Part shown: positions 45,434-51,074 of the stretch, one piece after another
Layout: each line of letters opens with the position of its first letter
How positions within the stretch are numbered: position 1 is the first letter of the stretch
Assembly (NCBI GenBank): GCA_017465565.1
Contig: JAFTWA010000039.1
Coordinates: forward strand, 1 to 64,000
Length of the DNA stretch: 64,000 bases
Direction of reading: 5' to 3'
Origin: Tyzzerella sp.
GTDB taxonomy: Bacteria > Bacillota > Clostridia > Lachnospirales > Lachnospiraceae
Translations under genes and position numbers: made by a program
Notes under the pieces: generated by a model
The model's database searches: none
The model's input: only the letters and a program-made list of their open reading frames with translations
What the model was told of the DNA's origin: nothing

Positions 45434-46738
45434 TCATGAAATTACTGTTTTAATAACTGGCTGCTTTTCCACTTTTTCTTCTATAAGTGTGTATGCATTT
45501 CGCAGTCTCTCTTTTCCTTGTGCAAGCTTTTCCAAATCATTGGCATGAATTGTTGCAAGCGCTTCTCCTTTTTCTACCTTGTCACCATGCTTCTTATGAA
45601 GAACAAGTCCAACTGCCAAATCAATCTCACTTTCTTTCGTCTCTCTCCCACCTCCAAGGAGTAAAGAGATGCGTCCGATTTCTTCCGTCTGAATCTTAGA
45701 AACAAAGCCCTCTTTTTCGCTAATAACTTCTTCTACATATTGGGCTGCAGGAAGTTTCTCCGGATGCAAGATTTCTTCTTCTGAACCACCCTGTGCAACG
45801 ATAAACTTTTTAAATGATTCAAATGCAGAGCCATTCTGAAGCGATAATTCCAACCTCGCTCTTGCTTCCTCCAGACTATCTGCTTTCTTTGCAGCAACAA
45901 CCATATGAGAACCAAGTGTTAATACCAGCTCTACCAAATCCTCTGGCCCATTTCCCCGTAAGGTTTCAATCGCTTCTTTTACTTCAAGCGCGTTTCCAAC
46001 GGCATTTCCAAGTGGCTGGTCCATCTCAGAAATGACAGCCGCCATGGTTCTTCCAGAAAGCTTTCCTATCGATACCATTGCTTCTGCAAGCGCTATAGAA
46101 TCCTCTAATGTCTTCATAAATGCACCGTCACCGGTTTTTACATCTAATACAATCGCATCTGCGCCAGAAGCCAGTTTCTTACTCATGATACTGCTTGCTA
46201 TTAAGGCAATCTTATCAACTGTCCCAGTTACATCACGAAGTGCATAGAGCTTTTTATCAGCTGGAGCAAGGTTTGCAGTCTGTCCTACGATTGCCATATG
46301 AATGCTATTTACGTTGTGAATAAATTCTTCGTTGGAAAGACTGGTATGAAATCCTGTGAAGCTTTCTAATTTATCAATGGTTCCGCCTGTATGACCAAGT
46401 CCACGTCCTGACATCTTTGCAACTGGTACGCCAAGGGACGCCACCATAGGACCAAGCACTAAGGAAGTTTTATCTCCAACGCCGCCTGTGCTGTGCTTAT
46501 CCACTTTAATTCCCTCAATTGCAGATAAATCCAGCATGTCACCACTTTCTGCCATGGCAAGTGTTAGATTCACAGTCTCTTCTGCTGTCATGTCCTGAAA
46601 ACAGATGGCCATAAGCATCGCAGACATTTGATAATCCGGTATGTTACCATTTGTATAGTTGGTAATCATGTATCGTATTTCTTCTTCCGTGAGTTCTAAA
46701 CCTTTCTTTTTCTTTACGATTAAATCATACATATTCAT
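45434..46738 (-). CDS. pdp: Pyrimidine-nucleoside phosphorylase
   Basis: A 434-residue phosphorylase cleaving uridine, thymidine or deoxyuridine to base and (deoxy)ribose-1-phosphate. The phosphate/nucleoside motif [20 protein letters not shown] (20 residues) and [17 protein letters not shown] (17) are diagnostic. The alpha and alpha/beta domains span the full length. No good SD precedes the ATG at 46738; ATG at 46732 is an alternative. It follows the GTPase-RNase fusion gene by 3 bases, so the two are co-transcribed. Confidence 0.96.
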
Positions 46739-46741
46739 AGA

Positions 46742-49402
46742 CTAATCACTTTCCTTTTCTTCTAATTCATGAAATTCTCTTCTTCCCATGCGGACATCAT
46801 CCATGAAGTCCGCCAATTCTTCAGGAAGCCCTTCAAAGAGATAACTGCTGGTTTTCTTGGTTTTCTCTAAATGTTCTTCACGTATTTCTTGATTCATAAG
46901 CTTAATTTCTGTTAACAAATCTCTCGCTGAAATGCGGTGTGCCCCCTGACCAATGATAATCATTTGCTCCAGTGCATCCGATGTTGCAACCTTTACCTGA
47001 TATTTTTTACCAATTTCCTGTACCGTCTTTTCGATGTACTGGTCGGCCGTCTCAGCCTCTTTTGTATATACCACATAAATATTATGATATTTTAAAACTT
47101 CACCAATATTTCCAGGAACCTTGTAGCCGTCAAATACCAGAATAACTATATTCTTACGATATCCTTGGTAATTACAAAGAACATCCATAAGTTTTCCGCG
47201 CGCGCCCTCTATATTTACTTTTGATAACTCCTTTAAGTCTTCCCACGCAAAGATAACATTATAGCCATCCACTAGAAGAACTTCTTGCAATTGTTCTTGT
47301 TTTTTCACCTTTTTCGGCTGTGAAGTGGATGATGAAATGATTCTTGTACTATCGTAACGCTCTCTCTTCATTGGTCCATAAGTGCGCTCAAAGATTTCTT
47401 TGAGTTCCTCATCATCAATTACCAGAGGCGCTGAATAAGACGTTGCAGTTATTTCTTTTTGCATTTGTTTTTGTTTTGCAGCAAGACTTTCCGTATGCAT
47501 ATGATTTTCAACCTCGCTCCAGTGCACCACAAAGCCAGCTCCATGACTGCAGAATACGGAGCCAGTTGGATTATCCAAATCAGCCTCTGAATCATAACCA
47601 ATCTGTGCAATTACTTCTTCACTGTTATGACATGGCTCATACCCTTTCAATGTGCAGAATAAGCGTCCCAAGCCTCTGCTGTAAGCAACCACCTCTGTCT
47701 GATAATCTCTCATATGAAGAACAGGCGCTGTTCCTTTTAAAACAGACATATCTCCATCAATTTCTGGCTGTGAAAATGTTCCCTGCATCTTTTGAATATC
47801 AGACATTGCACGTCCTATCATTTCAGAAGGAACTTCCAATTGATATTCATAGACCGGCTCTAAAAGGATACTACTTGCACGCTTCAGTCCTTGCCGCACT
47901 GCACGGTAAGTCGCCTGACGGAAATCGCCGCCTTCTGTGTGTTTTAAGTGCGCGCGTCCATTTACAAGCGTAATCTTCATATCTGTAATCTCAGAACCTG
48001 TCAGAACACCAAGATGTCTTTTTTCCTGCAAATGTGTGAGTACGAGCCTTTGCCAGTTGCGGTCTAGTATGTCTTCACTGCAATCTGTCTGAAACTTCAG
48101 TCCACTTCCTCTCTCACCAGGTTCTAATAACAATCTTACCTCCGCATAGTGTCTAAGTGGCTCATAATGGCCTGCCCCTTCCACTGCTTCAGCAATCGTC
48201 TCTTTATATACAATGTTTCCCGTTCCAAATTCCACTTCCGTCAGGAAACGTTCAGCAATCATGTTCTTTAAAATTTCAATCTGAACTTCCCCCATAACCT
48301 GTGCATGGATTTCGCCCAGCGGCTCGTTCCAAACAATGTGAAGTTCTGGTTCTTCCTCTTCTAACTGTTTTAGTTTTAAGAACATACCATGGACATCACA
48401 ACCCTCAGGTAATTGAATCTGATAAGTCAGTACTGGCTCCAACATTGGCGAATAAGCATCCTCTTCCAATCCAAATCCATCACCGATTCTTGTACTTTGA
48501 AGTCCTGTCACTGCACAGATACTTCCAGCAAAAATCTCATTCGCTGGCGTAAAAGAATTTCCCGAGTAGATTCGAATCTGATCAACCTTTTCTTCTTCCT
48601 TTAACTCTGTCTTTACCTTCAAAGAACCACCTGTTATTTTCAAGTGAGTGAGGCGATTTCCCTGTTTATCTCTGGAAATCTTATAAACTTTTGCCCCAAA
48701 TTCTTCTGGATACTCTGGGCATTTCGTATTTTTCTCAAATCCTTCCAGGAACTCTTCGATTCCTTGTAATTTCAGTGCAGAACCAAAATAACATGGAAAG
48801 ATTTTGCGCTTCTGAATCATTTGCTGAATTTGTCCTGCCGAAACTTCTTCGCCTTCCAGAAATTGTTCTAATACTTTTTCATCACACACAGCAACATTTT
48901 CAAGAAATTCATTAGAATCTTGTTCTGAAGAAAAGTCTACACAGTTGTCATGAAGCTGTTTCTTTAGTTCTGTCAACAGAGCTTCTTTGTCTGTACCATC
49001 CTGATCCATTTTATTAATAAATAAAAATACTGGAATCTCATAGCGCTCAAGTAATTTCCATAATGTCTTCACATGCCCCTGTACACCATCGGCTCCACTG
49101 ATAACTAAAATTGCATAGTCAAGCACCTGAAGGGTTCGTTCCATCTCCGCAGAGAAATCTACATGCCCCGGAGTATCTAAGAGTGTGATTTCTTTTTCTC
49201 GAAGCTTTACCTCTGCCTGTTTGGAGAAAATGGTAATGCCACGCGAACGTTCTAACTCGTATGTGTCAAGAAATGCGTTCCCGTGGTCTACTCTTCCAAG
49301 TTTTCGTATATTTCCACTCAAATATAAAATACTCTCTGCAAGTGTTGTCTTTCCAGCATCTACATGTGCCAGAATTCCAACTACTAAACGATTGTTGGTC
49401 AT
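46742..49402 (-). CDS. TetM/EF-G-like ribosomal GTPase fused to an NYN (YacP/Rae1-type) RNase domain
   Basis: An 886-residue two-part protein. Residues 1-~625 are a TetM/EF-G-like factor: G1 AHVDAGKTT (12-20), G3 DTPGH (76-80), G4 NKMD (130-133), G5 SALK (208-211), and domain IV with the tip KHTEGGDFRQATY (487-499). After a linker (about 630-705) comes an NYN/PIN-like domain, with acidic residues D712 (LLVDGYNVI), D758 (VFDGYK), D787 (EAETADQYI) and D809 (VATSDALE). This resembles B. subtilis Rae1/YacP, an A-site mRNA endonuclease. Tet(M) proper is about 640 residues, so this is not simple tetracycline resistance. SD TAGGAG. An A-site ribosome-rescue or mRNA-cleaving role is inferred. Confidence 0.85.
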   Translation of the reverse strand: MTNNRLVVGILAHVDAGKTTLAESILYLSGNIRKLGRVDHGNAFLDTYELERSRGITIFSKQAEVKLREKEITLLDTPGHVDFSAEMERTLQVLDYAILVISGADGVQGHVKTLWKLLERYEIPVFLFINKMDQDGTDKEALLTELKKQLHDNCVDFSSEQDSNEFLENVAVCDEKVLEQFLEGEEVSAGQIQQMIQKRKIFPCYFGSALKLQGIEEFLEGFEKNTKCPEYPEEFGAKVYKISRDKQGNRLTHLKITGGSLKVKTELKEEEKVDQIRIYSGNSFTPANEIFAGSICAVTGLQSTRIGDGFGLEEDAYSPMLEPVLTYQIQLPEGCDVHGMFLKLKQLEEEEPELHIVWNEPLGEIHAQVMGEVQIEILKNMIAERFLTEVEFGTGNIVYKETIAEAVEGAGHYEPLRHYAEVRLLLEPGERGSGLKFQTDCSEDILDRNWQRLVLTHLQEKRHLGVLTGSEITDMKITLVNGRAHLKHTEGGDFRQATYRAVRQGLKRASSILLEPVYEYQLEVPSEMIGRAMSDIQKMQGTFSQPEIDGDMSVLKGTAPVLHMRDYQTEVVAYSRGLGRLFCTLKGYEPCHNSEEVIAQIGYDSEADLDNPTGSVFCSHGAGFVVHWSEVENHMHTESLAAKQKQMQKEITATSYSAPLVIDDEELKEIFERTYGPMKRERYDSTRIISSSTSQPKKVKKQEQLQEVLLVDGYNVIFAWEDLKELSKVNIEGARGKLMDVLCNYQGYRKNIVILVFDGYKVPGNIGEVLKYHNIYVVYTKEAETADQYIEKTVQEIGKKYQVKVATSDALEQMIIIGQGAHRISARDLLTEIKLMNQEIREEHLEKTKKTSSYLFEGLPEELADFMDDVRMGRREFHELEEKESD

Positions 49403-49413
49403 TTTTACTACTC

Positions 49414-50121
49414 CTACATTTTGCCATATTCGGAAATGATTCCATCTATAATCTTTGAGGCTTCGCTTCTTGTAAGCCTACAAAAGTCACAAGTTACTCT
49501 AACGTCATGGAATGCACAAAGTGCTTTTATATATTCCACCTGTTTTCCGGTACATGGCTGTGTTTTTTTCGGTTTGAATTGTAATTGCTCTGGTATGAAG
49601 AGTTTCCCGTCTTTTTCTTCATATTCATGAGCCAGCATATGATAAACCTTTGCGGTCGATAAAGCATCGTAATAGGCACGATGCGCAGCAGGATTCTCAA
49701 TTCCATAATATGTACATAAAGAACCTAGACTTTTTGATTCTAAATCCTTATGTACCTTTCGTGCAATCTTCAATGTATCAATTCCCGTCTTTTCAAAGGG
49801 AAAAGCATATTGATTGGCGTATTTTTTTATAAATTTATAATCAAACATAATATTATGTCCAACTAATACATCATTACCACAAAATGCAACAAAATCACGG
49901 ATGATTGACTCGGTGTCTCTTGCACATGCCACCATCTCATTCGTGATTCCTGTAATGCTTGTAATCATTGGGGAAATCGGCTGCTCTGGCTTTAGAAATT
50001 CCATAAAGCGTTCTCTGACTTTACCATCTACCACTTTCAAAGCACCAATTTCTATTATGTAATCACTTTCTACGTTAAGGCCTGTTGTTTCTAAGTCGAA
50101 GGCTACATAATTTTTAATCAT
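49414..50121 (-). CDS. DEDDh 3'-5' exonuclease (DNA polymerase III epsilon-like)
   Basis: A 235-residue exonuclease. Exo I is AFDLETTGL (Asp, Glu), Exo II is GHNIMFDYKFI, and Exo III HRAYYDALSTAKVY gives the DEDDh His and Asp. After residue ~180 there is a ~55-residue tail (PCTGKQVEYIKALCAFHD, then DFCRLTRSEASKIIDG) that looks like a small separate domain. I chose the ATG at 50121, where homologues start; its SD is poor (GAGAGG, 16 bases away). The frame overlaps the end of dus only if the longer start at 50154 is used. Confidence 0.85.
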   Translation of the reverse strand: MIKNYVAFDLETTGLNVESDYIIEIGALKVVDGKVRERFMEFLKPEQPISPMITSITGITNEMVACARDTESIIRDFVAFCGNDVLVGHNIMFDYKFIKKYANQYAFPFEKTGIDTLKIARKVHKDLESKSLGSLCTYYGIENPAAHRAYYDALSTAKVYHMLAHEYEEKDGKLFIPEQLQFKPKKTQPCTGKQVEYIKALCAFHDVRVTCDFCRLTRSEASKIIDGIISEYGKM

Positions 50122-50132
50122 TTTTTCTATTC

Positions 50133-51074
50133 TTAATCCTCTCGCAAAGCACAAGTTTCAAATAACGTGCTTATGATATTTTCATACTCTTTGAGACGTT
50201 CTGTCTTCTTAATTTTCTTTGCATGTTTTTCGGCATCTTCAAATAAAGAAATCATGTAAAACCATAATTCCTTCATCTTGAAGAGAACATTACGGTCTCC
50301 AGAACTGATTTTAATGTATTCCTCTAAAACCATCTGATGAAAACCGTATAAATTATCTTTAGAAAGTTTTAAACCACTTTCTATATTAGATACTAAAGCA
50401 GGATTTTTTATAATTCCCCTGCCTAACATGAGTGCTTTTGCCTCAGAAAAACGCAAATAGAACCTTTCATAATCTTCTTTCGAATGAATATCTCCGTTAT
50501 AGCAAATCGGATTCTTACTTTCTTTGTAAGCCACCTCAAACATATCCCAGTTTGGAGTATTGTTATAATAATCAGTTTGAACTCTTGGATGTATCGTTAA
50601 CTCTTCTATCGGATATTTGTTGTATATTTCTAAAATACGATAGAATTCATCTGGATTTTCTTTACCAATCCTTGTTTTCACAGAAATCTTCATATCTGTT
50701 TTTTCAAAAACTTCTTCTAAAAATCTATCCAACTCATCTGGAAATGCAAGGAAACCCGAACCTTTCTTTTTCGTTACGACAGTCTTAGAAGGACATCCAA
50801 AATTAAGATTAATCTCATCATATCCCAAAGCTTTAATATCTTTTGCTGTTTTTAAAAAGTCCTCTGAATTATTCGTTAATAATTGAGGAATGACTACTAA
50901 GCCTTCATTATGCTCCGGTGAAAGTTCTTTTAATTCTCTTGTACTAAATTTCTTATCCTTATGTGGTACGATAAAAGGAGTAAAATACTTATCCATTTTT
51001 CGAAAATATTTGTGATAAGCATTCCGATACACATAAGTTGTAACCCCTTCTAACGGAGCCAGGTAGTATTTCAT
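50133..51074 (-). CDS. dus: Divergent tRNA-dihydrouridine synthase
   Basis: A 313-residue FMN-dependent enzyme reducing uridines in tRNA. It begins YYLAPLEGVTTYVYRNAYH. EINLNFGCPSKTVV, KISVKTRIG, ELTIHPRVQTDYY, YNGDIHSKED and ALMLGRGIIKNPAL follow the Dus TIM barrel. After GCPS I see KKKGSGFLAFP with no Cys where several Dus proteins carry the catalytic Cys, so this is a divergent subgroup. SD TGGAG. It lies 15 bases after the cysteine-cluster gene. Confidence 0.87.
   Translation of the reverse strand: MKYYLAPLEGVTTYVYRNAYHKYFRKMDKYFTPFIVPHKDKKFSTRELKELSPEHNEGLVVIPQLLTNNSEDFLKTAKDIKALGYDEINLNFGCPSKTVVTKKKGSGFLAFPDELDRFLEEVFEKTDMKISVKTRIGKENPDEFYRILEIYNKYPIEELTIHPRVQTDYYNNTPNWDMFEVAYKESKNPICYNGDIHSKEDYERFYLRFSEAKALMLGRGIIKNPALVSNIESGLKLSKDNLYGFHQMVLEEYIKISSGDRNVLFKMKELWFYMISLFEDAEKHAKKIKKTERLKEYENIISTLFETCALRED

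Follow-up and report, generated by a model that had tools for sequence, protein, structure and literature searches.

A GTPase of the EF-G/Tet type fused to a Rae1-like NYN nuclease domain in Tyzzerella and related genomes lacking an intact stand-alone yacP

Layout of the fusion gene

The window analysed here is the whole 64,000-nucleotide stretch of Tyzzerella sp. (Lachnospiraceae; assembly GCA_017465565.1, contig JAFTWA010000039.1, positions 1 to 64,000). According to the listing of its open reading frames, positions 46742..49402 on the minus strand hold one ATG-started frame of 886 amino acids (aa), which encodes a GTPase of the elongation factor G (EF-G)/Tet type fused to a nuclease domain of the YacP/Rae1 type. 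On the plus strand, this interval is interrupted by numerous stop codons. The fusion was first noticed in a reading of the letters without database searches (the sequence-only reading). Its coordinates proved correct and its domain calls were borne out, with all five EF-G/Tet-type domains and the nuclease domain recovered by Pfam in the order GTP_EFTU, EF-G_D2, EFG_III, EFG_IV, EFG_C and NYN_YacP (Table 1). Comparisons with related genomes indicate that the fusion very likely took over the job of stand-alone Rae1.

Table 1. Positions in the window of the fusion gene, its parts and its two neighbours (SD, Shine-Dalgarno; nt, nucleotides).
Feature	Residues	Positions	Strand	Remarks
Whole fusion gene		46742..49402	-	886 aa, ATG; SD-like aggag 9 nt upstream, adjoining the stop of the preceding gene
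G domain	6-223	48734..49387	-	Pfam GTP_EFTU, 3.3e-50; AHVDAGKTT, RGIT, DTPGH and NKMD motifs intact
EF-G domain 2	236-310	48473..48697	-	Pfam EF-G_D2
EF-G domain III	322-393	48224..48439	-	Pfam EFG_III, 26.1 bits, just below the 27-bit cut-off
EF-G domain IV	396-509	47876..48217	-	Pfam EFG_IV
Domain IV tip (loop III)	482-495	47918..47959	-	Reads GRAHLKHTEGGDFR
EF-G C-terminal domain V	513-594	47621..47866	-	Pfam EFG_C
Subfamily tail	595-638	47489..47620	-	..NPTGSVFCSHGAGFVVHW..VE..MH; non-fused relatives stop near its end
Linker	639-706	47285..47488	-	Between subfamily tail and NYN domain
Linker motif ELKEIFERTYG	666-676	47375..47407	-	Picked out in 62 of 66 fused proteins
NYN_YacP/Rae1 nuclease domain	709-871	46790..47278	-	Pfam NYN_YacP; acidic residues D712, D758, D787, D809
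Upstream neighbour, DEDD exonuclease (RNase_T)		49414..50154	-	Context; beside the fusion in the window, L082 and L083
Downstream neighbour, pdp (pyrimidine-nucleoside phosphorylase)		45434..46738	-	Context; beside the fusion in the window, L082 and L083

The two parts of the protein are joined by a linker of 68 residues in the window and of 61-142 aa (median 79) across the 65 fused proteins measured. The sequence-only reading had described this linker as basic and rich in serine and lysine. A linker is indeed present, yet its composition is just mildly basic, with 13 K+R against 10 D+E and eight S among the 68 residues. A motif of the approximate form E[LIV]xxI[FL]x[RQK]T[YF] could be picked out in 62 of the 66 fused proteins, and variable stretches flank it on both sides. 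Non-fused GTPases end before this motif, which reads ELxxIFERTYG at residues 666-676 of the window's fusion. The comparison behind the subfamily tail was made only with proteins having both ends within their locus (L001, L010, L015, L020, L099, L117 and L119 were dropped) and after removal of the duplicates L022, L011 and L017.

The nuclease domain and its acidic site

The C-terminal domain, called NYN-like in the sequence-only reading, clearly matches the NYN_YacP profile (6.9e-51; 173 bits against a cut-off of 24.6). The same part matches the solved YacP/Rae1 of Bacillus subtilis (PDB 5MQ8/5MQ9) with an E-value of 1.7e-29 over residues 2-171 of the 181-aa query piece, and homology to these structures predicts a NYN/PIN fold. 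Four acidic residues had been singled out from the letters alone. These residues (D712, D758, D787 and D809) align to D7, D53, D81 and D104 of B. subtilis Rae1 and hence correspond to the Rae1-type acidic site. No variation is seen at D758, D787 or D809 across 66 fused and 33 stand-alone sequences. D712 is present in all 33 stand-alone sequences and in 64 of the 66 fused rows, the remaining two having been cut during extraction; one of these (L045) has the equivalent residue (VDSYN), and the other (L041) stays unassigned.

The window's version shares with B. subtilis Rae1 the whole NYN domain and all four acidic residues. It differs in being fused to a GTPase and encoded elsewhere, whereas Rae1 is a stand-alone protein. 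A further difference is the C-terminal tail, which is relaxed among fusions. Columns that are at least 94% conserved in free Rae1 retain a conservation of 91% (0.91) in the fused core (39 columns) but of 53% (0.53) in the fused tail (4 columns). This comparison covers 65 distinct fused rows, and the fused and free sets are similarly diverse (mean pairwise identity 0.52 and 0.54). Individual tail columns (N..L, E..R) are just 42-69% conserved in the 65 fused rows. The window's fusion keeps the tail length, with 62 residues from S825. The relaxed tail may represent a docking element relieved once the GTPase docks the protein, and it may equally reflect drift at a protein end.

Probable replacement of stand-alone yacP

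Three overlapping genome samples were searched, covering the order (146 genomes), the class (291) and the phylum (249). No genome in them combines the fusion with a separate yacP, both intact (0/146 in the order sample, 0/249 in the phylum sample and 0/291 in the class sample). The sequence-only reading had proposed looking for a separate yacP in the window's own genome; none was found in this 88.6%-complete assembly, whose single PF05991 match is the fusion. Additional NYN matches occurred as fragments in G050, G021 and G114, and as two similar stand-alone copies in G365. A 61%-complete genome (G515) carries two fused copies. Coexistence of both forms was considered for G518, G580 and G619 and rejected, as the second matches span just positions 3-49 and score under the Pfam threshold.

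Both rlmB and sigH were found in 25 of 33 distinct stand-alone loci, and yacP lies between them in all 25, with a gap of 523-747 bp. Seven of the remaining loci have one flank found, and one (G093) has neither. In the window's own genome, the aligned ends of rlmB and sigH are 5 bp apart with no yacP between them. Of 49 fused genomes examined, 48 yielded rlmB; its surroundings were read for all 48, and sigH follows directly in 36. The gap between the aligned ends of rlmB and sigH is 2-267 bp, with no NYN match, in 34 of these 36 readable slots, and the other two (G050 and G021) hold broken pieces of yacP. Several states occur within the genus coded g301. In G445 the slot holds an intact yacP of 168 aa, and no GTPase matches at 1e-120, while G414 has the fusion together with a yacP relic bearing stops in the slot. 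G518, G580 and G619 carry the fusion, and no yacP relic was found there. In total, decayed yacP remnants were recognized in three fused genomes.

An empty rlmB-sigH slot and relics of yacP are what would be expected if the fused NYN domain had made the free enzyme dispensable. No other evidence here speaks as strongly as the vacated slot for the fused NYN domain doing the work of Rae1, and judging from these gene comparisons it is very likely that the fusion took over this job. An obligate partnership of the GTPase and Rae1 before the fusion was also considered. Such a partnership is unsupported, as most order-sample genomes with stand-alone yacP are without the GTPase. In one genome with a stand-alone yacP (G024), the non-fused GTPase reading frame is split in two frames (L058:3443-5409).

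Distribution of the fusion

PF05991 matched in 123 of the 146 order-sample genomes. The frame holding the best match is at least 857 aa long in 48 genomes, 523 aa in one (G039) and at most 272 aa in 74, and the fusion architecture is present in 49 genomes. Many gut clostridia have the fusion, and carriage follows family lines. Counted over genomes with a PF05991 match and by family code, the fusion occurs in 14/15 (f1), 10/10 (f2), 13/13 (f8), 2/2 (f21), 7/8 (f24) and 3/11 (f22) genomes, and in none of the other 14 matching families. Two genomes of f2 and one of f8 (G084) have no PF05991 match; in G084 this is probably explained by a GTPase gene running into the contig end.

Of the 291 class-sample genomes, 189 match PF05991, and the tally of matches per genome covers all 189. 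Among the matches listed (150 rows), at least 87 genomes are fused, 57 are stand-alone by frame length and five rows fall between. The GTPase query likewise finds all 87 listed fused genomes. Among the 57, G560 and G601 carry their GTPase on a different contig from the NYN match, perhaps as fusions cut in two. The phylum sample contains 134 matching genomes out of 249, of which 16 have the match in frames of 863-914 aa. A search of named records returned 57 loci, 42 of them at 47% identity or more (three cut by contig ends) and 15 of them distant GTPases, at 36% or less. Among the named relatives are Tyzzerella, Blautia, Coprococcus comes, Hespellia, Niameybacter, Mediterraneibacter and Candidatus Stoquefichus. 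That similar proteins may be filed as tetracycline ribosomal protection proteins had been guessed beforehand, and the Agathobacter rectalis relative is indeed named 'TetM/TetW/TetO/TetS family...'; the Monoglobus relative is instead called 'translation factor GTPase family protein'.

Full-length fusions also lie on two large plasmid-class records (Monoglobus and Agathobacter). Two unannotated faecal records labelled 'Bacteriophage sp.' match 93% (MT835563.1, 5421-7958) and 97% (MT835514.1, 15288-17873) of the fusion, with identities of 57% and 51%, respectively, and may represent phage cargo or bacterial contigs. A mobile resistance gene was not adopted as an explanation, since the window copy sits among housekeeping genes despite the plasmid-class and phage-labelled records.

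The GTPase part compared with Tet proteins and EF-G

Complete GTPase G motifs and an EF-G-like domain IV had been recognized in the sequence-only reading, and both hold up by Pfam and motif conservation. Sixteen of 17 counted G-motif positions are identical in all 66 fused proteins, and G55 is identical in 64. The further suggestion of a TetM-like function is not supported, given a score below the NCBIfam Tet cut-off and a domain IV tip without the canonical Ser-Pro-Val. On the NCBIfam model tet_protect (NF012153), the window's fusion reaches 431.3 bits against a cut-off of 775, and this is still its best-scoring NCBIfam model. One fused and three non-fused relatives score 408-451 bits. For control, eleven Tet-like proteins that are more distant were taken from the order sample, and all score above the window's fusion. 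Five of these controls (L172-L174, L178 and L181) reach 819-853 bits and read YYSPVSTPADFR at the domain IV tip, including Ser-Pro-Val. The other six (L175-L177, L179, L180 and L182) stay below the cut-off at 498-685 bits and are also without Ser-Pro-Val. Missing the tet_protect cut-off is thus not rare. L175, L176 and L177 are a further Tet-like group with the tip HTHPLDF and sub-cut-off scores of 498-529 bits; L175 and L176 come from genomes (G135 and G084) that also carry a fused-type GTPase.

The tip reads HLKHTEGGDFR in the window and YSPVSTPADFR in canonical Tet proteins, with LKH where Tet has SPV. In essence, the tip GRAHLKHTEGGDFR is common to fused and non-fused members of the group and unlike the canonical Tet sequence GLYYSPVSTPADFR. 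Its residues H488, D493 and F494 are identical in all 66 fused proteins. TetM and TetO share with the fusion a five-domain, EF-G-like make-up by sequence, and TetO is the best PDB match (5.9e-74); differences are the identity of only about 30%, the failed Tet cut-off and the other domain IV tip. Elongation factor G has the same domain order, the G motifs and a histidine at the domain IV tip, but the fusion scores 309.3 bits on the EF-G model TIGR00484, under the cut-off of 659.4. A separate EF-G (L184; 830 bits; truncated at a contig end) is encoded in the same genome, as is L183, a paralogue resembling EF-G. The GTPase would be placed in its own subfamily of the EF-G/Tet superfamily, without the canonical Tet hallmarks, and the designation as a Tet protein fails two tests.

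Origin of the fusion

In a GTPase tree built with 35 of the 66 fused rows, these rows form one clade with a support of 100. The clade adjoins non-fused relatives of 639-675 aa, which end approximately where the linker starts. In a NYN tree, all 66 fused rows and one stand-alone row (G093) form one clade with a support of 98. A smaller NYN tree of 59 rows, 26 of them fused, recovers fused rows plus G093 at 99/94, and fused rows alone weakly at 77/0. These trees suggest that the GTPase-Rae1 fusion probably arose once.

Some relatives depart from the common pattern. The stand-alone NYN gene of G093 (L063:4987-5508) groups with the fused NYN domains, and rlmB and sigH were not found in the 10.5 kb read around it. 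It is possibly a fission product, or else a sister of the fused clade or its donor. A protein encoded on a Ligilactobacillus salivarius plasmid (L185:2995-4914) consists of the GTPase only, is 50.6% identical to residues 5-638 of the window's fusion and is annotated as TetM/TetW family. Either a former fusion now without its NYN domain or a relative that was never fused could account for it. Second GTPase homologues lie two reading frames downstream of the non-fused GTPase in L050 and L051 (genomes G112 and G011), and G503 also has two copies.

A possible one-polypeptide no-go-decay factor

Rae1 belongs to the small number of bacterial nucleases for which mRNA cleavage within the aminoacyl (A) site of the ribosome has been proposed. 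It destabilises mRNAs in a translation-dependent manner (PMC10100781 and PMC11780869). For TetM, PMC7456112 describes binding of the domain IV tip in the A site. We lean slightly towards a scenario in which a GTPase of the EF-G/Tet superfamily fused to Rae1, replaced it, and would now act as a one-polypeptide no-go-decay factor at stalled ribosomes. A more specific version, in which a GTP-driven A-site probe with a tethered mRNA endonuclease displaced free Rae1 in large parts of the Clostridia and A-site cleavage is gated by GTP hydrolysis, is tentative and falls somewhat short of an even bet. In the manner of EF-G-type factors, the GTPase part would bind ribosomes whose A site is empty or blocked, and domain IV would probe or clear the decoding site. 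After GTP hydrolysis the GTPase would withdraw, in this presumed order. The NYN domain, kept close by the linker of approximately 68 residues, would then enter the A site and cut the mRNA, its presumed substrate. Alternatively, the cut might be made on a neighbouring ribosome. An EF-G-type action at the A site is itself an inference. By analogy, eukaryotic no-go decay also combines an endonuclease (Cue2; PMC6598757) and a translational GTPase (the Hbs1-Dom34 complex) at stalled ribosomes. The eukaryotic components are separate proteins, and the likeness is one of analogy only.

Several observations weigh against a fused factor that replaced Rae1 and works at the A site. For one, domain IV would be in competition with Rae1 for a single A site. 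With TetM binding there and Rae1 proposed to go there too, the two can hardly be present at once on one ribosome, so the nuclease being placed 'next to' the factor, in the words of the sequence-only reading, would have to mean 'in turn'. The NYN tail is absent in 10 of 65 fusions, and their activity may be altered. The GTPase-only L. salivarius protein falls among the fused rows in the free tree, where a single fused clade is not rejected (p-AU 0.79). G093 has a non-fused GTPase besides its stand-alone NYN gene. In 12 of the 48 fused genomes sigH is not next to rlmB, lying 3274 bp away (G026) or outside the stretch read, and the slot cannot be judged. G601 is an ambiguous case, its GTPase (frame of 760 aa) and NYN part (frame of 190 aa) lying on separate contigs. 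Finally, a non-fused GTPase occurs in just 11 of the 74 order-sample genomes having stand-alone yacP (12 with the split gene of G024).

The NYN domain might also be an ordinary Rae1 that is merely co-translated with a GTPase of separate function, with no mechanistic coupling between the two. We regard this as rather unlikely. The length and variability of the linker, the resemblance of the NYN catalytic residues to those of free Rae1, and the majority of yacP genomes of the order sample, which do without the GTPase, would all fit such a passenger. Against it, most sampled genomes in fusion-bearing families retain the fusion, the linker motif persists in 62 of 66 proteins, and the NYN C-terminal tail is relaxed.

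Less probable still is that a ribosomal protection protein against tetracycline, or another drug, gained an RNase domain that adds to resistance. This idea was suggested in print in 2015 (PMC4342817). It draws on tet_protect being the best NCBIfam model, on relatives annotated as TetM/TetW, and on the six Tet-like controls that likewise miss both Ser-Pro-Val and the cut-off. The window's fusion, however, scores below all eleven Tet-like controls as well as the cut-off, and the five controls with Ser-Pro-Val lie far above it. Pro509 of TetM overlaps bound tetracycline (PMC7456112). Carriage resembles that of a core gene in some families (f1, f2 and f8), and G005 holds a canonical Tet gene besides the fusion.

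We consider it improbable that, instead of mRNA, the NYN part processes rRNA or tRNA on the ribosome, with the GTPase serving as an assembly or quality-control checkpoint. Maturation of rRNA and tRNA was an early proposal for the NYN domain (as cited in PMC4342817), but the characterised homologue Rae1 acts on mRNAs in a translation-dependent manner (PMC10100781 and PMC11780869, as above). An assembly error or frameshift joining two genes, which the sequence-only reading had itself raised and for which no evidence was found, is refuted almost beyond doubt by relatives, with the same architecture recurring in dozens of separate assemblies (49/146 and at least 87/291 genomes, plus the 42 named-record loci at 47% identity or more).

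Earlier literature and implications

The fusion itself is not novel, as it has been in print since 2015. Atkinson et al. (PMC4342817) devote one sentence to Tet proteins with a YacP-like NYN domain in 'ten species of clostridiales' and mention a possible resistance variant. The architecture is identical to that described here. These proteins were filed there under Tet and resistance, whereas the proteins examined here very likely replace yacP and miss two Tet hallmarks. A limited literature search, which did not cover the Rae1 discovery paper or a 2018 paper on Rae1 distribution that could mention the fusion, turned up no other work on the fusion and no published account of yacP being replaced. 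New here are the probable yacP replacement, the two failed Tet tests and the confinement of pdp adjacency to the window and two Tyzzerella loci.

A lineage in which Rae1 has been swapped for a GTPase-built version could provide a handle on a GTP-gated step, on the target of the probing domain, and on how Rae1 finds ribosomes. Naming also has practical consequences. Two full-length relatives are named differently, one of them with a tetracycline-resistance name, so a name-based census of resistance could miscount a probable housekeeping factor.

Genomic neighbourhood

Gene order around the fusion is not kept, and the commonest neighbour cluster occurs in at most 13 of 65 fused loci. The sequence-only reading had proposed the downstream pdp gene as a partner that could recycle nucleosides. 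This operon link was rejected, as pdp adjoins the fusion only in the window and in the two Tyzzerella loci (L082 and L083), a count made over 65 other fused loci, 59 of which extend at least 1500 bp downstream. The neighbours in the window are of housekeeping type and comprise genes for a dihydrouridine synthase and the DEDD exonuclease together with pdp, yqfD, phoH and ybeY.

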